NCBI RefSeq assembly: GCF_001424145.1
Contig: NZ_LMQM01000005.1
Coordinates: 1-62,272 of the forward strand
DNA length: 62,272 nucleotides
Reading direction: 5' to 3'
Source: Chryseobacterium sp. Leaf404
Lineage (GTDB): Bacteria > Bacteroidota > Bacteroidia > Flavobacteriales > Weeksellaceae
Made by a program: the position numbers and the translations under genes. Below, one piece after another: positions 27,262 to 57,364 of the stretch; within the stretch, counting starts at the first letter, position 1; every line of letters begins with the position of its first letter. A model generated the notes under the pieces. The model was not told the DNA's origin. It saw nothing but the letters and a program-made list of their open reading frames with translations, and made no database searches.

Positions 27262-27276
27262 TCCCTCCAACTCCAC
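27262..27276 (+). other. Internal att core: right end of element 1, left end of element 2
   Basis: TCCCTCCAACTCCAC, identical to 2850-2864. TACAATATTTGCTACAA (27205-27221), a near copy of the left arm-type site, lies about 40 bp away. Confidence 0.85.
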
Positions 27277-35586: not shown

Positions 35587-35820
35587 TTAGTCAATTTTAA
35601 AGTTCAGCAAATCTTTAGGAGACACATTTAAACCTTTAGCTAAGTCGATTAAAGTAGTAAAAGCAAAATTTCTTTTCCCATTTTCAATATCACTTACTGT
35701 ACCTTTAGTAATTTTACTACTATTTAGCACAACCTCGTCTTGGGTAAGTCCTGATTTAATTCTTAAATCTTTAACGTGTTCACCAAATTTTTTTAGTATT
35801 TCATCTTTTAAAACATCCAT
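35587..35820 (-). CDS. XRE-family regulator divergent from the sigma-dCas12f locus
   Basis: 77-aa XRE HTH protein (LRIKSGLTQDEVVLNSSKIT, then KGTVSDIENGKRNFAFTTLI) with a short acidic tail. It is divergently oriented to the RNA/sigma/Cas12f-like unit. A perfect palindrome between them (35864-35885) overlaps the -33 side of the rightward promoter, so this protein is the obvious candidate repressor of the system (inference). Confidence 0.8.
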   Translation of the reverse strand: MDVLKDEILKKFGEHVKDLRIKSGLTQDEVVLNSSKITKGTVSDIENGKRNFAFTTLIDLAKGLNVSPKDLLNFKID

Positions 35821-35912: not shown

Positions 35913-36145
35913 TTAGTTATAAAGGTAATTTTGTGATAGTCAAAGAAATATAGAAGCTATTGCTTTAGATTCTCGACTGGAAAACTGGCACTTTTCAAAA
36001 AGCAACGAGTTATTAAGTAAATGTGCCCACGACCTCGGCAAGGGCTCACTTATCGTTGCTCGGTATGCCAGTACCACCAGTCGGTAAGTTGAGTTCCACG
36101 CATTCTTTTTGGCAATATGTAGTGAGATAATGTTTGAATGTTGCA
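35913..36145 (+). ncRNA. Candidate tracrRNA-like scaffold RNA upstream of the sigma gene
   Basis: Non-coding, highly structured leader. AGCAACGA (36001-36008) pairs with TCGTTGCT (36053-36060), enclosing inner pairs AAGT/ACTT and GCCC/GGGC. GGTA/TACC (36062-36075) forms the next hairpin. At its 3' end, TATGTAGTGAG (36116-36126) can pair with CTCACTAAATA in the lone repeat downstream of the Cas12f-like gene (10 of 11 positions). After a 4-nt bulge, TGTT (36131-36134) pairs with AACA. This is the layout of a Cas12f tracrRNA with a 3' anti-repeat. Boundaries are predictions. Confidence 0.6.
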
Positions 36146-36207: not shown

Positions 36208-37023
36208 ATGAAAAGAACAAACTCTTTGCCCCGAAAGTTGACCAATCTTCAGTTGTATGAACTGCTAAAAAAAAGCAATCCGACCGCTTTGGAACATCTT
36301 CATCTGCGTTACAAAAGACTTCTTTTTTGGGTTGGATGGCAGGTGCTTAAAGATGATTTTGTAGTGGACACTATTGTTCAGGATACCTTCCTCAAATTGT
36401 GGCTGCACCGCGACACCATTGAAACGCCTGATCATATTACAGGATTTTTACGGTTTGTAATGAAAAGGGATTGTATATCGTATGTTACTGCTCCAAGAAA
36501 TAAATTCAACCGCTTAATGGCTTCTCTTGACAGTTTTGAGAATTATCAGGATTATCTTGCAGGTTATGACCCGCTAAAAGATAAAGAGTATCTTCTCAGT
36601 CAGGAATCCGATCAGAAAAATTTCGATGAAGTTAAAAAGGTTTTACCCGTTCTGGATCCCAAAAGAAAACACCTGATTGAACTTTGCTTGGAATATGGCT
36701 TTCAGCACAAACCAATCGCAGAAGCAATGGGAAGCAGTGTGAAAGATATCAGCAATGAGGTGAGCAGAGCTATAAATGACCTTCGGAAAATTCTTAATAG
36801 AAGTTCTTCTGAGCAGCCAAAGGGAAAAGCTCTCGATAATAAAAAGCAGTCAGAAAAACTCAGTAGTCAACAACTCGATATTTTGAAAAGAAGGTTTGAG
36901 CAGAAATCTTCATTTGCAGTTATTGCCCAAGAACTCAAATTACCTGAAAAGGAAGTACATCGGGAATTTCTGTATGCATATCAACATTTACAAAATCAAA
37001 ACACTTCTGAAATACCTCTTTAA
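36208..37023 (+). CDS. ECF-type sigma factor partnered with dCas12f-like protein
   Basis: 271-aa sigma-70 family protein. Region 2 lies at about 30-90 (RYKRLLFWVGWQVLKDDFVV, VQDTFLKLWLHRDTIETPDH). Region 4 HTH lies at about 150-195 (LDPKRKHLIELCLEYGFQHK, IAEAMGSSVKDISNEVSRAI). A C-terminal extension at about 220-271 carries a second HTH-like segment (LDILKRRFEQKSSFAVIAQE), unusual for ECF factors. No anti-sigma gene is adjacent. The Cas12f-like gene starts 1 bp after the stop (TAAAATG), so the two are made together. Inferred role: recruited by the RNA-guided partner to open promoters at guide-matched sites. Confidence 0.85.
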   Translation: MKRTNSLPRKLTNLQLYELLKKSNPTALEHLHLRYKRLLFWVGWQVLKDDFVVDTIVQDTFLKLWLHRDTIETPDHITGFLRFVMKRDCISYVTAPRNKFNRLMASLDSFENYQDYLAGYDPLKDKEYLLSQESDQKNFDEVKKVLPVLDPKRKHLIELCLEYGFQHKPIAEAMGSSVKDISNEVSRAINDLRKILNRSSSEQPKGKALDNKKQSEKLSSQQLDILKRRFEQKSSFAVIAQELKLPEKEVHREFLYAYQHLQNQNTSEIPL

Positions 37024-37024
37024 A

Positions 37025-38119
37025 ATGGAAAAATCCACGATGACATTGACCCGAAGAATTCAGCTACTGATTGATCTTCCTGCAAATGAACAAAAAGAGA
37101 TGTGGGAAAAACTCTACCGGTATCAGAACCGCTGTTTCAGAGCTGCTAATTTTATTGTTTCCCATCTGTATGTTCAGGAAATGATCAAAGATTTCTTTTA
37201 CCTCACAGAAGATATCCAATACAAACTTGCTGATGAAAACAAAGATAAAATGGGAATATTCACCCGTTCGAAAACACACACAACTGCACGTATGGTTTTT
37301 GATCGCTTCAAAGGAGAAATTCCTACAGATATTCTGGGAAGCCTGAACAATACGATTCAATCAACCTTCTCTAAAACTAAAGCCGACTATTGGCAGGGAA
37401 CAAAATCATTGCGAAACTTTAAGAAAGATATTCCAATTCCGCTTCCGGTCAAATGCATCAGCAAAATGAAGTATGATCCCGAAAAGAAAGCATATAGCTT
37501 CAATATGTTTGCTATTCCTGTTAAAACGTATTTGGGAAACGACTACTCTGATAAGCGAGTGATAATGGAACGCCTCTTAAGAGAAGAGATAAAGCTTTGC
37601 ACATCGCAGATCCAGCTGAAAGCCGGAAAGATCTATTGGCTTGCAGTATTTGAATTTGAAAAAGAAGAACATAAATTAAAACCCGAAATCATTGCAGAGG
37701 CTTCCCTGTCTTTGGAACACCCGATAGTGGTAAAGACCAACAATGTGCGAATCAATATTGGCTCGAAAGAGGAGTTCCTGTATCGCAGGCTTGCTATTCA
37801 GGCAAGTCAGAAAAGGATTCAAGACGGTATCGCCTATACCCGTTCAGGAAATGGAGTTAAACGCAAACAGAAAGCATTGTATAAGACAGAGAATCTGGAA
37901 AGCAGATATGTAAGTCATCGGCTTCACCTTTATAGCCGTAAACTTATCGATTTCTGTATCCAGCAACAGGCAGGCACATTGATTCTTAAAAATCAGGAAG
38001 ATAAAATAGGCATTGCAAGAGAACAGGAATTTGTGCTTCGCAACTGGAGTTATTATGAATTGCAGACCAAAATAAAATACAAAGCAGAAAAAGCAGGAAT
38101 TGAATTGATCATTGGATAG
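37025..38119 (+). CDS. Nuclease-dead Cas12f/TnpB-like RNA-guided protein
   Basis: 364-aa Cas12f homologue. The N-terminal REC/WED-type part includes YRYQNRCFRAANFIVSHLYV and the family segment SLRNFKKDIPIPLPVKCISK. The RuvC part has INIGSKEEFLYRRLAIQASQ, HRLHLYSRKLIDFCIQQQAG and the C-terminal NWSYYELQTKIKYKAEKAGI. The catalytic Asp of RuvC-I is missing (ASLSLEHPIVV where VDLGI is expected). The RuvC-II Glu is Lys (TLILKNQEDKI). The protein stops before the zinc finger and RuvC-III Asp, so it cannot cut DNA. An upstream in-frame extension overlaps the sigma gene and is rejected; ATG 37025 is used. Known relatives in Bacteroidota pair with ECF sigma factors for RNA-guided transcription. Confidence 0.85.
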   Translation: MEKSTMTLTRRIQLLIDLPANEQKEMWEKLYRYQNRCFRAANFIVSHLYVQEMIKDFFYLTEDIQYKLADENKDKMGIFTRSKTHTTARMVFDRFKGEIPTDILGSLNNTIQSTFSKTKADYWQGTKSLRNFKKDIPIPLPVKCISKMKYDPEKKAYSFNMFAIPVKTYLGNDYSDKRVIMERLLREEIKLCTSQIQLKAGKIYWLAVFEFEKEEHKLKPEIIAEASLSLEHPIVVKTNNVRINIGSKEEFLYRRLAIQASQKRIQDGIAYTRSGNGVKRKQKALYKTENLESRYVSHRLHLYSRKLIDFCIQQQAGTLILKNQEDKIGIAREQEFVLRNWSYYELQTKIKYKAEKAGIELIIG

Positions 38120-38161
38120 GAAAAAAATAACGAGGGTGCTTGTACACCCGCAGGGTGAGGT
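38120..38161 (+). ncRNA. Hairpins between dCas12f gene and lone repeat
   Basis: GGGTG/CACCC (38134-38149) and the overlapping CACCC-GCA-GGGTG fold, then GTGAG pairing with CTCAC inside the repeat. Probably the 5' side of the crRNA-like transcript. Confidence 0.45.
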
Positions 38162-38199
38162 GTTGAACACTCACTAAATACTCAGTGAGTATATACAAC
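38162..38199 (+). CRISPR. Single CRISPR-like repeat (38 nt)
   Basis: Begins GTTGAACAC and ends ATACAAC, with an internal ATACTC-AGT-GAGTAT hairpin just before the end. The GTTG...CAAC termini are typical of type II/V repeats. There is only one copy, so this is a minimal guide locus rather than an array. Its 5' half pairs with the anti-repeat at 36116-36134. Confidence 0.7.
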
Positions 38200-38220
38200 G
38201 GCGTGGGCTCTTTTTTTACT
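38200..38220 (+). ncRNA. Guide-like sequence after the repeat
   Basis: GGCGTGGGCTCTTTTTTTAC follows the repeat where a Cas12f guide would lie. The T7 run could end a short guide of about 11-18 nt. I find no perfect match elsewhere in the window by eye; the target is presumably elsewhere. Confidence 0.55.
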
Positions 38221-47343: not shown

Positions 47344-48492
47344 TTATCTTCTTAATTTTCGCTTCTTTTTAGAGAGTTCATCTTCGTCCTGAGAAACATA
47401 GGTTGGATTAAGTAAGTCACTTATTAATCCGCCTGCAATATCTATTAAGCTTTCATTTGGGTCTGATTTCAAATGATTACTAGCATCATTATTTACACTA
47501 TTTTGACTTAATGATTTTACCAGATCATCCAGACCAGAATCTATTGCTGACAGAGAGAACCCGACATTTTTCCGGAAGAAGAATCCGTTTTTCTCTTTAC
47601 TACTATTAATTTCATTTATCCAAATATCTTTAACTTGATTTTTTTGCCCAGCTTTAAAGTCTCCGTTATATTGGATCTTTACAGAAAATCCTTTTTGTTG
47701 TATATTTTCCCGAAATTCCTTTAAGTTGCTAGCGTATTTTTGTGCTTCCTTAACCGCAGTTTTAACCTCAAACAAAGATTTTATTTCAGAGATTTTCAAT
47801 TGATTTGAAATTTCAGACAATTTGTAACCAGCTTTATAAATCCTTTCAGTTTGATGATTTTTGTCCTTTTCCATCAATATTCGCATTCCCGAAATCCCGT
47901 CTTTCACATTTGAAGATAATTGGACGTCAAAACCTTTTTTCTTCATTCTTAGGATTAGATCATCAAAATTATCTTCTGCCCTGATAGTTTCGGTCAAGCT
48001 TTTCAACATCTCGGCTTTTTTTTGCGCTCCAATTTCTATATCGGTCAATAATCCTTTCTCTTTACAAACTTCTCTGACAGCTTCACCAAATCTCTTTCCG
48101 ATATCGTGTGATTTCACGGTACACTTTCCCGAAATATCAATCCTGTTCACGATAAAATGAATGTGCTTATGTTTGGTGCTATTATGAATATCAAGCCGAA
48201 ACTGGTTGTTTGCCGTCACACCGACTTTATCTAAAGCTTTTGTGGCGATTTCTAAAAATTCTTCATCCTTCAATTTTCTGCCAATTTCGTCTGGTTGAGA
48301 AATATATCCTGTCAATGCCCATTTCTTCACTTTGGAATTTCTTTCAGCTACGGTTTTCATTTCGTGAAATTGACCTTCAGCAATGTCACTCAAAAGATAG
48401 TTTGAAGCCACCATTTCTGCTGTTCCTTTATCGTTGCCATTATATTCCAAAGCAATTTTTGTAATGGTTCTTGTGGTTGCGGAATTATTCAT
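47344..48492 (-). CDS. mobB: Relaxase/mobilization nuclease (MobB type)
   Basis: 382-aa relaxase of the relaxase/mobilization nuclease (VirD2-like) family. The metal-binding His triad is in RLDIHNSTKHKHIHFIVNRI (about residue 100-119), followed by VKSHDIGKRFGEAVREVCKE. The candidate catalytic Tyr near the N-terminus is in KIALEYNGN. It should nick at oriT and be transferred with the strand by a helper conjugation system, since no type IV secretion genes are present. It overlaps the upstream mobC by 8 bp. Confidence 0.88.
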   Translation of the reverse strand: MNNSATTRTITKIALEYNGNDKGTAEMVASNYLLSDIAEGQFHEMKTVAERNSKVKKWALTGYISQPDEIGRKLKDEEFLEIATKALDKVGVTANNQFRLDIHNSTKHKHIHFIVNRIDISGKCTVKSHDIGKRFGEAVREVCKEKGLLTDIEIGAQKKAEMLKSLTETIRAEDNFDDLILRMKKKGFDVQLSSNVKDGISGMRILMEKDKNHQTERIYKAGYKLSEISNQLKISEIKSLFEVKTAVKEAQKYASNLKEFRENIQQKGFSVKIQYNGDFKAGQKNQVKDIWINEINSSKEKNGFFFRKNVGFSLSAIDSGLDDLVKSLSQNSVNNDASNHLKSDPNESLIDIAGGLISDLLNPTYVSQDEDELSKKKRKLRR

Positions 48493-48934
48493 TTTTCTGA
48501 ATTTTTGAATATAAATATTGATGAATCAATTCGATCAGATTTTCGATTTTCACTAAAATTTCTTTCTTATTTTCAAAAACATTCCATTCTCGATTTCGCA
48601 AAAGATTAGTGATTTTTTTGAAATGAGTTCCATATTGAAGCAACACCTCATCAGTTTGGAATTCATTAATTTTTAGTTCTTTTTCGAACAAAACATTTCG
48701 GATATAGGTTGATAATTTTAATGGATATTTTTTCTGTTTTTGAATCAGGATTTCATATTCAGAATTGGTCATTCGTATTGAAATAACTTTGTCCAATTTT
48801 TTATTTTCTTTGGTTTTCAAACCACCTTTACGACCTAATTCCTGAAAATATTTTTTTCTCTTTTCCTGAGCAATTTTGACTTCATTTTCTTTGGTGGCTT
48901 GCTGTATGAATTCTTGTAAAAAGTCTTTCTCCAT
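48485..48934 (-). CDS. mobC: Relaxosome accessory protein MobC (ribbon-helix-helix)
   Basis: 149-aa protein: GRKGGLKTKENKKLDKVISI, then RMTNSEYEILIQKQKKYPLK and LSTYIRNVLFEKEL, the MobC/RHH pattern that binds oriT. A longer frame starts at 48964, but ATG 48934 (MEKDFLQEFIQQ) is better. It overlaps the relaxase gene. Confidence 0.82.
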   Translation of the reverse strand: MEKDFLQEFIQQATKENEVKIAQEKRKKYFQELGRKGGLKTKENKKLDKVISIRMTNSEYEILIQKQKKYPLKLSTYIRNVLFEKELKINEFQTDEVLLQYGTHFKKITNLLRNREWNVFENKKEILVKIENLIELIHQYLYSKIQKNE

Positions 48935-48964
48935 TGTATTAATTTTAGCGCATTTAAAAAACAT

Positions 48965-52644: not shown

Positions 52645-53886
52645 TTATTTAAAAACCTCATTCATATAGTTGATTTTATCATCTTCGCTTGGTCTGTAGT
52701 AGGCATTAAACACTTCTAAGCTGGTATGACCCGTGTAGCTCATAATTACCTTATCCGGAACTCGTTTGTTCTTCATTATAGTAATAAAACTTCTTCTTGC
52801 AGTATGCGAGGAAATTCTCGTCCAAAATTCAGCTTTTTGGTCTACCAGCTCATCACCATATTTCATAGTTTTTTTTATTTCATCGGTAAACTCTAACTTT
52901 TTAAAAACCTCTTTAATATATTCATTCATCTTTTGATTTGTAATACTTGGCAGATTATAATCATACTTTTCAAGTATTGATTTAGAAATACTGTTTAAAG
53001 GAATTGCTAAGTTTTTAGATTTACTTTTTAAATCAATAACCCGTATGAAATTTCCGTCAACATCACTTCTGGAAATCGTACTGTAATTGCCAAACCTCAT
53101 TCCGGTAGTACAACCAAAAACAAAAAGATCACGAACCTTTTCTAATCTTTTGTTTTCACTGAGATTGTAATTATATATGAGTTCAACTTGTTCATAATTC
53201 AAAGCTATTTCATCAGTTGTAAATTTCGCAGGTTTCTTGAAAGCAATAAAATTGTTATTGTAAGTATATTTTTTATTTAGAGCCCAAAGAAGAAAAGTCT
53301 TGAGCAGACCAACATTTCTATGTAATGTATTTGCAGAATGTTTCTTTTCTTCAATACAATATTTTAGAAATTTGTTATAAAGTTTATTGTCAAATTTTCC
53401 TAAGCTGATCTTTACTTTGCTATATCTTTCAAAATCTTCGAGTAAATTCTTATTGCATTTGTAACGCTTTAGAGTTGAGTTTGAAATCGAATTACCCGTA
53501 TAGTCGTTTTCCTTCTCATTTAAAAACTCCTGATAAATTCTAAAGAAATCACTTTTAACTGTTATTTTTTTGAATTTTTCATCAAATCTTTGTTTAAGAA
53601 CATCAACGGTAAGTTCTTCATTTATGTTCTTATATCGATTAACAATCTCTGTAAAAAAACTACTATATCTATCCAACTGCATTTTAACACTTCGATGAAT
53701 CTCTGCCCTTTTAGTTCTTCCGTTTAGGTCATTAGGTTGCCTACCTTCAAAATCCCATTCGGTTGGTTTTATTTTCTCACCAGTAGAATAGATAAAATTC
53801 TTACTTTCATTGTTGAAAAATGAACGGAAATAAATCAGAGTTTCCTTTGTACCATTGGGTTGCTTAAGTTTAAAAGTGTAATTCAT
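52645..53886 (-). CDS. Tyrosine integrase of element 2
   Basis: 413-aa Bacteroidota-type tyrosine recombinase. N-terminal arm-binding domain (about 1-100), core-binding SAM-like domain (FRIYQEFLNEKENDYTGNSI), catalytic domain with Arg in TTGMRFGNYST, His-x-x-Arg in SHTARRSF, His in YTGHTSLE and Tyr in NAYYRPSE. It starts about 140 bp from the att core at 54027 and faces leftward into the element. It is only distantly similar to the element 1 integrase though both use the tmRNA 3' end. Confidence 0.9.
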   Translation of the reverse strand: MNYTFKLKQPNGTKETLIYFRSFFNNESKNFIYSTGEKIKPTEWDFEGRQPNDLNGRTKRAEIHRSVKMQLDRYSSFFTEIVNRYKNINEELTVDVLKQRFDEKFKKITVKSDFFRIYQEFLNEKENDYTGNSISNSTLKRYKCNKNLLEDFERYSKVKISLGKFDNKLYNKFLKYCIEEKKHSANTLHRNVGLLKTFLLWALNKKYTYNNNFIAFKKPAKFTTDEIALNYEQVELIYNYNLSENKRLEKVRDLFVFGCTTGMRFGNYSTISRSDVDGNFIRVIDLKSKSKNLAIPLNSISKSILEKYDYNLPSITNQKMNEYIKEVFKKLEFTDEIKKTMKYGDELVDQKAEFWTRISSHTARRSFITIMKNKRVPDKVIMSYTGHTSLEVFNAYYRPSEDDKINYMNEVFK

Positions 53887-54223: not shown

Positions 54224-57200
54224 TTAATCAACAGACATTTTTGCAGATTCCTTCCATAAATAGTTAGGTATAGGCTCATTAAGCACCCATTTGATACTCA
54301 TTGGCTTTGAGCCTTCTGTTTCTTTAAAAGTACCTTCTCCTATAAATACATATCCAAGTGTATTACCATTTTCGTCATTTGCTCGCTCTCTTACAAAAAG
54401 CAATATTATTTTTTCATTTTCTACATGACTGACGTATGATTTTCCTTTAGTAGTTTCCGGACCGTATGCATTGTGAGATTGCCAATGAAACAGTGTCTCG
54501 CTAATTGCGTAATCATCATACATTGTAGTAGGTGAGAAATCCTCTTCAGATTTGATGAGATTAATAAACAGTATTTCTGTATTCAAATTTTTATTCTCTG
54601 CCGCTCCCTCTCTATTTGAAGATTTTTTTTCAAATGTTGACATTTCAAATGCAACTAAAATTTGATCTCTGGTATATCGCGAATGTAACTTTAATGGTTG
54701 TTCATAAGGCAAATAAATATCCAGTTCCTTGAACCCAATCTTATCAATTAAAATTTCCAGAACCTCTATAATTTCATTTATCAAAGTCTGATTTTTTCCT
54801 ATTTGTCTGATACTTTCTTCTAAACTTCCGAAACCTCCTGCGTTTTGCCAAATGTCATAATGAAGCATTAAAAGCATTGTTTTTTCTTTCTCAGTAAAAT
54901 CCTTAATTCGAATATCGAAGGACCGTTTTGCGATTTCTAAAATAAAATTAAAGTAACTCACAGAATTAGTTGATAACCATTTCTTGCTAATTGCTGAGTA
55001 AATTTGTTTCTCATCGCCATCCTCAAAATCTTCGATGACACCAGCTCTTTGGCAAAGTCTACACCAACTTCCTTTTTTATAAATAACTTCAAGCGGAATA
55101 TGATACAGTTCTGTAAAATTCCTAAGTGTCAATGGCAAAGTAGTCTGATGCTGAAAATTTATTATTTTGGTAATAATTTGATTAATATTGAGAGAAGTGG
55201 CTTTCCTGATATTTGTAAGAATTACTTCTTTCGTTTTTTTCTCTAAAACTATTGAGCAACCTAAAGGCAAGTGTGGGAAATCGTCTTCAATTTCCTTTTG
55301 TACGGAAGTTGTGGTCTTCCCTATTAGGGCCCGGAATTTATTTTCAAAATCATATTCAGGTCTTGCGTTTCCAACAAAATCTAATACTGTTAAACAATCT
55401 TTTCCTTCTGCTAAGCGAAGACCACGACCTAACTGCTGAAGAAAAACAGTTAAGCTTTCAGTAGGTCTCAAAAACAAAACAGTATCAATTTCCGGAATAT
55501 CAACACCTTCATTGAATATATCAACTACAAACAAGTAGTTGAACTCTTTTTTTCTAAATCTTTCTCGAAGTACATCTCTGTCGCTAGCATTTTTAGAGGT
55601 TAGAAATTCAGCTTTTAGATCAGCTTGATTGAATTTTTGAGACATATACTCAGCATGATCAATATTTACACAAAAACCTATTGCCTGAACATCCTTCAAA
55701 TCTGTTGTATACTTCTGTAGATTATTAATGATTTCACCTACTCGCGCTTCATTTTTTATATACAGGCCAGCGAGCTCACTGACTGCATATTTTCCTTTCT
55801 CCCATTTCACACTTGTTAAATCGATGCTGTCTGTAATACCAAAATATTGAAAAGGAGTTAATAATTTTTTATTCAGAGCCTCGGGAAGTCTAATTTCCGC
55901 TGCGACACGGTTACAAAAATCTTCAAGAATATTTTCATTATCCATTCTCTCTGGTGTAGCTGTCAATCCAAGCAAGACTTTTGGCTGGAAGTAATCTAAA
56001 AATGGTCTGTAACTGGAAGCTGGACCGTGATGTGCTTCATCTAATATGATAAAATCAAAATATTCCTTTGAGAGATTTAGATCTTTTAACCTATTATTCA
56101 AAGTCTGTACAGAAACAAATAAATACTCATGCGATCTTGGCTCGAGGCCGTCAACCCACAAATCACCAAAATTATTATCCTTCAACACACCTTGAAATGT
56201 TGCTCTTGCCTGTTGCAGGATTTCTTTTCGATGTGCAACAAAAAGCAATTTTGCTGATGTATTATTTTTTCTGAAGTTTTTGTAATCAAATGCCGAAATA
56301 ACAGTTTTTCCAGTACCTGTTGCAGCAACTAATAAATTTCTGTTTCTGTGGTGTACAGTACGTTCAACCTCCAGCTTTTCGAGTATTTCACTTTGATAAT
56401 GAAAAGGTTTAAGATCGAAATATGATGTTGTAAAATTATATTCTTTTGAAAATTTTCCTTGCTTCAATGCATCAACTAATTTTACAAAATGAGCGTCTTG
56501 TTGATAAGATTCAAACTCTGAATTCTGCCAATAAGCTTCAAAAGTCTTTTTAAATTTATCGATGATATGGCTAACTTCTCTGGTTGTGATTTTTAAGTTC
56601 CACTCCAAACCATCAGTTAATGCTGATCGCGAAAAATTAGATGAACCGATATAGCCTGTATGAAAACCTGTATTGCGTTGAAACAAATAAGCTTTCGCGT
56701 GCAATCTTTCATTTCCAGTATTGTAAGAAACTTTGACTTCCGTATTTTTTAACGATGAAAGGAATTCTACTGCCTTTGCATCTGTTGCTCCTATATAAGT
56801 TGTAGTAATGACTCTTAAGATTCCACCTCTGTCAGTAAACTCTCTCAACTCACGCTCAAGAATTCTTATACCTTTCCACTTTATGAATGAAACTAAAAGA
56901 TCAATTTTATTCGACGATAGTATTTCTTTCCGGAGCTCACTTTCTAAAGTTGTGCCTGAGTTTCCGCCAGTAAAAAGTTCGCTGTGAATTAATCTGGTAT
57001 AAGGAGTAATTTCTTTTAAATGAAGATCTAAGTCTGTAAAATGAGCATCAACGTTTGTAAAAACTGCTTTCAGAATCTTACCTTCAGTTTCAATTAAATC
57101 ATCTTCAAACTCTTCTTTTTTCAGTTCTTCTTTTAAAAATAGAATGATTTTGTTTGCAATCTCAATTTGAATTTCTAAAATGTCTTCGCCTTTTATCAAA

Positions 57201-57364
57201 TTAAAGGCCTGTTTAATTGTTTTACCAATATGCTGAGATAATAAGTGAGCTGCCTCTGCTTTGTCAATCGAAATTTTCTTCACCTGAAAATGATCTTTCT
57301 CAAGCGCATTTAATTTTGTACTGATGAGTTGCGTCACTAACTCCTCATAAATTCCCTGATTCAT
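54224..57364 (-). CDS. PLD-nuclease/DEAD-box helicase/DUF3427 protein
   Basis: 1046-aa three-part protein. A phospholipase-D-type nuclease domain at about 120-280 has the HxK motif (NERLHAKAYLFQRNTGFHTG, then YIGSSNFSRSAL). An SF2 helicase at about 310-700 has Walker A LVAATGTGKTVI, DEAH in FIILDEAHHG, LLGLTATPERMD and motif VI FLQQLGRGLRLAEG. A C-terminal DUF3427 domain at about 850-1040 (RYTRDQILVAFEM, GKSYVSHVENEKIILLFV) follows. This architecture is widespread but patchy and is often found in defence islands; its substrate is not known to me. It sits alone just outside the att site and may itself be an accessory gene. Confidence 0.88.
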   Translation of the reverse strand: MNQGIYEELVTQLISTKLNALEKDHFQVKKISIDKAEAAHLLSQHIGKTIKQAFNLIKGEDILEIQIEIANKIILFLKEELKKEEFEDDLIETEGKILKAVFTNVDAHFTDLDLHLKEITPYTRLIHSELFTGGNSGTTLESELRKEILSSNKIDLLVSFIKWKGIRILERELREFTDRGGILRVITTTYIGATDAKAVEFLSSLKNTEVKVSYNTGNERLHAKAYLFQRNTGFHTGYIGSSNFSRSALTDGLEWNLKITTREVSHIIDKFKKTFEAYWQNSEFESYQQDAHFVKLVDALKQGKFSKEYNFTTSYFDLKPFHYQSEILEKLEVERTVHHRNRNLLVAATGTGKTVISAFDYKNFRKNNTSAKLLFVAHRKEILQQARATFQGVLKDNNFGDLWVDGLEPRSHEYLFVSVQTLNNRLKDLNLSKEYFDFIILDEAHHGPASSYRPFLDYFQPKVLLGLTATPERMDNENILEDFCNRVAAEIRLPEALNKKLLTPFQYFGITDSIDLTSVKWEKGKYAVSELAGLYIKNEARVGEIINNLQKYTTDLKDVQAIGFCVNIDHAEYMSQKFNQADLKAEFLTSKNASDRDVLRERFRKKEFNYLFVVDIFNEGVDIPEIDTVLFLRPTESLTVFLQQLGRGLRLAEGKDCLTVLDFVGNARPEYDFENKFRALIGKTTTSVQKEIEDDFPHLPLGCSIVLEKKTKEVILTNIRKATSLNINQIITKIINFQHQTTLPLTLRNFTELYHIPLEVIYKKGSWCRLCQRAGVIEDFEDGDEKQIYSAISKKWLSTNSVSYFNFILEIAKRSFDIRIKDFTEKEKTMLLMLHYDIWQNAGGFGSLEESIRQIGKNQTLINEIIEVLEILIDKIGFKELDIYLPYEQPLKLHSRYTRDQILVAFEMSTFEKKSSNREGAAENKNLNTEILFINLIKSEEDFSPTTMYDDYAISETLFHWQSHNAYGPETTKGKSYVSHVENEKIILLFVRERANDENGNTLGYVFIGEGTFKETEGSKPMSIKWVLNEPIPNYLWKESAKMSVD

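Follow-up and report, generated by a model that had tools for sequence, protein, structure and literature searches.

The extracytoplasmic-function (ECF) sigma factor and the adjacent nuclease-dead Cas12f (dCas12f) encoded in the window, meaning the whole 62,272-nucleotide stretch of DNA analyzed here, probably act with a guide RNA as an RNA-guided transcription activator of leader-controlled operons such as susCD. Both genes sit on what is predicted to be a mobile element, which also carries metal-resistance-type genes; the host is Chryseobacterium-like.

The sigma factor gene (36208–37023, + strand; 271 aa) is separated by 1 bp from the dCas12f gene (37025–38119, + strand; 364 aa), which was identified by sequence, profile and fold searches. 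Pfam places sigma region 2 at residues 33–94, a region 4 match at 141–189 and a second region-4-like match at 217–252; the last corresponds to the extra C-terminal HTH that the first-pass annotation had seen in this protein, and the sigma factor matches PDB chain 9n9q_C, ‘RpoE’, with E 3e-78. DCas12f aligns over its whole length with PDB chain 9n9c_A, ‘Nuclease-deactivated Cas12f’ (E 4e-159), and is ~57–60% identical to the PDB chains so named. Both the coordinates and these closest chains agree with the initial description of a 364-aa Cas12f homologue 1 bp after the sigma gene. Matches to dCas12f and RpoE chains fall in PDB entries 9n9c/9n9m/9n9q, and the titles of the dCas12f relatives include ‘dCas12f-gRNA complex’ and ‘dCas12f-gRNA-DNA complex (partial R-Loop)’. 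The loss of catalytic residues proposed at the outset is borne out by HMMER alignment with Cas12f chain 9nzo, in which VGVDLGINIPLY stands opposite AEASLSLEHPIV at RuvC-I (Asp to Ser) and IQMER stands opposite LILKN at RuvC-II (Glu to Lys). In a below-cut-off match to the 60-position TNB domain PF07282, dCas12f ends within the first 20 positions. RuvC-III and the zinc finger are therefore missing, as is the active RuvC nuclease that is a criterion of Type V-F CRISPR-Cas. In a fold search, dCas12f-type chains came top of the list, as expected for a Cas12f fold; the fold model of the protein itself is weak (pLDDT 61.6), and its identification therefore rests on sequence. A dCas12f of 100% identity (rounded) is present in genome G082, and copies with internal stops or split frames occur elsewhere (L048, G024:C15 and G063:C5), the system decaying in some genomes.

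Downstream of dCas12f lies a predicted guide RNA. Its scaffold (38131–38199, + strand), which ends in TATACAAC, is conserved among related loci, confirming the guide locus as real, and is directly followed by the guide GGCGTGGGCTCTTTTTTT (38200–38217, + strand), which from 38200 reads GGCGTGGGCTC. The locus set comprises 64 loci, the window and 63 related ones, and the scaffold alignment A5 was built from 21 of them. The scaffold end and guide are present in 62 of the 64; at L031 the scaffold stops short of the guide, and at L058 neither scaffold nor guide was found. Nucleotides 1–8 of the guide, GGCGTGGG, are identical in 58 of the 62 guide RNAs, upstream of which stand 53 distinct 69-nt scaffold strings, both counts ignoring kinship. 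At two loci, L019 and L033, three successive guide RNAs have differing guides on similar scaffolds, which identifies the stretch as a variable guide and not as scaffold. The solved dCas12f/RpoE relatives, the lost catalytic residues and the guide locus together support the original reading of the pair as a putative RNA-guided transcription system.

A feature added to the earlier annotation is a structured leader RNA element of ~155 nt before the sigma gene (35950–36103, + strand), here called family 1, which matches the leader covariance models R1/R2 with E 2e-29/1e-28, the window itself being among the sequences used to build the model. Divergent from it is an XRE/HTH_3 regulator gene (35587–35820, − strand; Pfam HTH_3 E 5e-11), in keeping with the regulator that had been assigned to the system. 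The leader has a box TAATTTTG (35926–35933, + strand) that fits TAnnTTTG, the Bacteroidota-type −7 motif. Within the leader follow the 5′ arm GTGCCCACG of a predicted three-strand switch (36023–36031, + strand; pairing class P_A), the switch strand with a decayed guide match, GGCAAGGGCTC (36037–36047, + strand; 2 mismatches in 11 against GGCGTGGGCTC), and the terminator-like 3′ arm GAGTTCCACGCA with its T-rich tract (36091–36110, + strand; pairing class P_T). Relatives have an intact guide match at the switch strand; in the window it is lost, and by eye both the P_A and P_T helices are weakened. The leaders of L002–L004 are decayed likewise, and that of L005 is intact. By sequence, then, the local leader copy of the window is decayed and a chromosomal copy before susCD is the intact one.

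That chromosomal copy was reached through the guide. The full guide 12-mer has a sole other perfect match in the genome, at G000:C3:17573–17584 (− strand), 426 bp before susC, with susD behind susC. An 11/12 match at C2:51692 looks coding by eye, and the shorter pattern GGCGTGGGYT occurs five times in the source genome, one occurrence being the guide itself. Across 60 genomes of the genus the 12-mer GGCGTGGGCTYT occurs 109 times: 85 occurrences lie within the leader, all on the same strand and at offset 76–91, 9 are guide RNAs and 15 are elsewhere. The reversed-pattern control gave 17 occurrences in the same genomes (sum of control columns); with 85 of 109 in the leader, the excess above chance is confined to one RNA. 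Beyond nucleotide 12, in the U-rich tail of the guide, targets match poorly. No match was found in plasmids, nor in viral contigs scanned with one 22-nt pattern and one protein.

The leader forms a rod that covaries: in 24 sequences the paired share of cells is 92.0%, slid versions reaching 40.9% at most, and 12 of 37 pairs are changed on both sides, the structure having been set by hand since RNAalifold gave a mixed fold on alignment A1. R2 rests on this hand-set structure, and alignments A2 and A4 lean to R2. The rod shape led 6S-Flavo to be considered for the leader; its match in the genome sits elsewhere. The guide-matched strand, GGCGTGGGCTC, can pair either with the upstream arm (P_A) or with the downstream arm and T tract (P_T). 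In 100 copies (99 distinct), P_A has 98.8% of cells paired against at most 74.4% when slid, with 6 of 7 pairs changed on both sides, and P_T has 96.0% against at most 59.6%, with 8 of 11 changed on both sides; the switch alignment A4 was fitted to R2, which includes the P_A and not the P_T pairs and whose outer helix includes bases 1–3 of the P_T 3′ arm. The two predicted helices cannot form together, an attenuator-like arrangement, and P_T makes a putative terminator-like stem of which the guide-matched strand is the 5′ half. The stem between match and downstream arm is strong in the eight leaders folded (−26.7 to −41.5 kcal/mol). Transcription attenuation leaders of the trp type are also three-strand switches. 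They share with the present leaders mutually exclusive helices before an operon, one of them terminator-like, whereas here the switch strand doubles as the DNA match of a guide RNA, and Rfam scans of the window region and six loci returned no family for either the family-1 leader or the guide RNA (5 weak, unrelated hits in one scan, 0 in the other).

This layout raises the alternative that control acts on RNA, the guide RNA pairing with an arm of the nascent leader and so setting terminator against antiterminator, with dCas12f as RNA carrier. The guide has the sequence of the switch strand and could pair with either covarying arm, and the match is 11–12 nt long and ends at the U tract; such a scheme, however, leaves no role for the adjacent sigma factor, and in 9n9m the solved relative is bound to DNA in an R-loop, so that we regard it as unlikely. 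A different alternative is repression, in which the complex would sit on leader DNA and block transcription from the XRE-linked promoter. The predicted leader promoter is upstream of the target, and a precedent exists in TldR, described in an excerpt of PMC13418256 as a RuvC-dead TnpB relative with a guide RNA that controls a surface-structure gene and for which short guides, of 6 nt, are enough. TldR represses and, in that excerpt, is mentioned with no sigma partner, whereas here the matched site is a leader and a sigma factor related to the RpoE chain of 9n9q is encoded 1 bp away; repression by this complex thus seems improbable to us.

Activation of leader-controlled operons by sigma-dCas12f, the reading we prefer, draws on what surrounds the leaders. 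With R1, 147 leader copies were found in 52 of 60 genomes of the genus; for 14 copies the distance to dCas12f is no more than 2.5 kb. DCas12f itself is present in 15 of these genomes; leaders occur in 37 of the 45 that are without it, and so have a function of their own. With R2, the leader was found in 33 of 296 Bacteroidota genomes and 17 of 139 genera. Upstream of the sigma gene in the 64 dCas12f loci stand 46 full and 2 partial family-1 leaders and 4 leaders of a second family; none was found at 12, two of which have no upstream DNA in the data. GGCGTGGGYT is kept in 31 of the 46 linked full leaders and lost in 15, the window among them.

Flanks were surveyed for a non-random set of 40 leaders (L149, L200–L238), 36 from dCas12f-bearing genomes, which by score comprise 29 core and 11 divergent members. 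SusC follows within 3.3 kb at 18 of the 29 core leaders, a 174-aa protein alone accompanies 10, and neither is found at 1; within 1.95 kb downstream, susC is present at 16/29 and the 174-aa protein at 13/29, and upstream on the opposite strand each is present at 0/29. The conserved 174-aa protein (for example at L151:3574–4098, L204, L206 and L214, among others) matches no Pfam family above cut-off. Neither susC nor this protein lies behind any of the 11 divergent leaders (L208, L210, L211, L217, L220, L222, L223, L225, L229, L230 and L231); several of these are followed by short proteins that look secreted by eye. A small HTH-type gene is often divergent from and upstream of the leader and varies between copies, seemingly without relationship, as if regulators had been swapped in front of a constant RNA; the XRE/HTH_3 type adjoins the stand-alone leaders L201, L214 and L226 by eye. 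TAnnTTTG occurs at most ~75 nt upstream of 37 of the 40 leaders, a count made without control, as is that of an inverted repeat near the −7 box in 28 of the 40.

The loci with guide RNAs in series lead to the second leader family. The middle guide GGGGCGGTTTTC has two matches in the L033 genome, the guide RNA itself and L243:5001, against 0 for the reversed control; in the L019 genome the same guide matches the guide RNA alone. L243:5001 lies in a family-2 leader, where the match stands between a 5′ arm and a 3′ arm with T tract. Upstream of it is a divergent HTH gene with a weak HTH_31 match, and from 2.7 kb past it thioredoxin-like, TonB-plug (SusC-type) and SusD proteins are encoded. Family-2 leaders precede the sigma gene in L021, L029, L034 and L061, all four of which are without family 1. 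That two leaders of no evident likeness each accompany susCD as well as sigma-dCas12f operons, and each have a matching guide, speaks for leaders being the targets. Among the remaining guides, the first of L033, GAGCGCCTTTC, matches itself only, and the best match of the first L019 guide is an ordinary terminator; a pattern covering these two first guides hit 21 sites. Two were the guide RNAs themselves; of 14 others examined, 13 lie in ORFs and 1 in an ordinary terminator, and at two more no leader was seen. With up to 3 mismatches allowed, the L056 guide had 109 matches and its reversed control 78, and no match made a convincing target.

These observations bear on the possibility that guide and leader merely share descent, the guide tail having been copied from a leader and serving another, unseen target or none. 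Leaders occur without dCas12f, many local matches are decayed, and no leader target was found for several guides, all of which would suit that account. Against it, scaffolds (53 variants) and linked leaders drift and the guide does not, and the second leader family, alike in layout, has its match in another guide of one array; we accordingly give common descent little credence. The invariance of the guide despite such drift fits targets in trans.

We propose the following course for activation by the sigma-dCas12f complex. DCas12f with its guide RNA would open the leader DNA at the guide-matched strand, the bound sigma factor would bring RNA polymerase to the leader, and transcription would begin a fixed distance downstream of the guide match; in a 2025 preprint, the R-loop and the transcription start are reportedly separated by a set distance. 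A transcript starting past the switch strand would lack the terminator-like stem's 5′ half and should read through into susCD, which would thereby escape the XRE-linked promoter and the terminator of its leader. Removal of the first 20 nt left all five family-1 examples, whose stems had been at −26.7 to −33.8 kcal/mol, with −7.3 kcal/mol or weaker; the three family-2 examples kept −16.0 to −23.8 kcal/mol at 20 nt and −4.8 to −13.0 kcal/mol at 50 nt removed. In this modelling, a start 20 bp or more downstream would abolish the stem in family 1 and do so only partially in family 2. As a leader stands before most sigma-dCas12f operons, positive feedback would follow. Target-adjacent motifs of dCas12f-sigmaE systems are a 5′-G. 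The family-2 match is preceded by GCATG; the bases just 5′ of the family-1 match are A, C or others, with none in common and so no clear motif, though the match itself begins with a G. A 12-nt match may be enough for targeting, given that 6-nt guides suffice for the TldR repressor (excerpt of PMC13418256). A bolder version of the proposal, which we put forward tentatively and with some doubt, is an RNA-guided terminator bypass: a universal guide would place sigma-dCas12f on the terminator 5′ arm of every such susCD operon, transcription would start between the arms with terminator and XRE control ignored, and the element would command the outer-membrane uptake repertoire of its host at once.

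The element in question has as its ends direct repeats of the tmRNA end. The tmRNA gene lies at 2467–2864 of the window, and its terminal bases at 2850 recur at 27262 and 54027, so that two elements appear to stand in tandem within the tmRNA end. The second is a mobilizable integrated element with boundaries deduced from the repeats (~27262–54040) and carries two P-type ATPases, a multicopper oxidase, a CusB/AcrB-type efflux set and the sigma-dCas12f set. Its mobility genes encode a MobA/VirD2-type relaxase (47347–48492, − strand), a NikA-like mobilization protein (48488–48964, − strand) and a phage-integrase-family integrase (52648–53886, − strand). Repeats, mobility genes and cargo fit the label of mobilizable metal-resistance element that it had been given. 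The first element (~2865–27262) contains an integrase, DUF3987, a phage tape-measure protein and a Fic protein, and just beyond the second, at 54227–57364 (− strand), lies a gene for a large PLD-like/ResIII helicase/DUF3427 protein, possibly a restriction or defence gene. With at most 13 kb compared per locus, the mobilization and primase region of the window (46.7–51.5 kb) has similarity in 19 of the 63 related loci, and metal-resistance flanks are common to 5 of the 63 (L002–L005 and L009). An element-borne copy, in which the first-pass annotation had located the novelty, is thus not rare.

Hoffmann et al. and Xiao et al. reportedly describe dCas12f-sigmaE RNA-guided transcription systems in 2025 preprints, and the kind of system found here is, by its PDB dCas12f/RpoE relatives, already known. 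The apparent new part is the target, a near-invariant guide matching a multi-copy, XRE-linked leader before susCD operons, although those preprints may already report such targets. Like the dCas12f-sigmaE systems of PDB entries 9n9c, 9n9m, 9n9o and 9n9q, the present one combines a nuclease-dead Cas12f, an adjacent RpoE-like sigma factor and a downstream guide RNA; unlike them, it has a guide that is common to nearly all loci found and matches a multi-copy leader family, and a predicted mobilizable, tmRNA-integrated element carries it as cargo. Among the literature matches listed, none dealt with dCas12f-sigma or with the family-1 leader, and an excerpt of PMC9723704 contained neither XRE nor SusD. 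Two structured leader families with guide matches are described here, the negative Rfam result covering family 1. The proposed start of transcription past the 5′ half of a terminator would be a new mode of switching on an operon. If true, the finding would give a protein pair of a known kind its place in a regulatory circuit whose regulon can be named, with one guide, many leaders and defined downstream operons.
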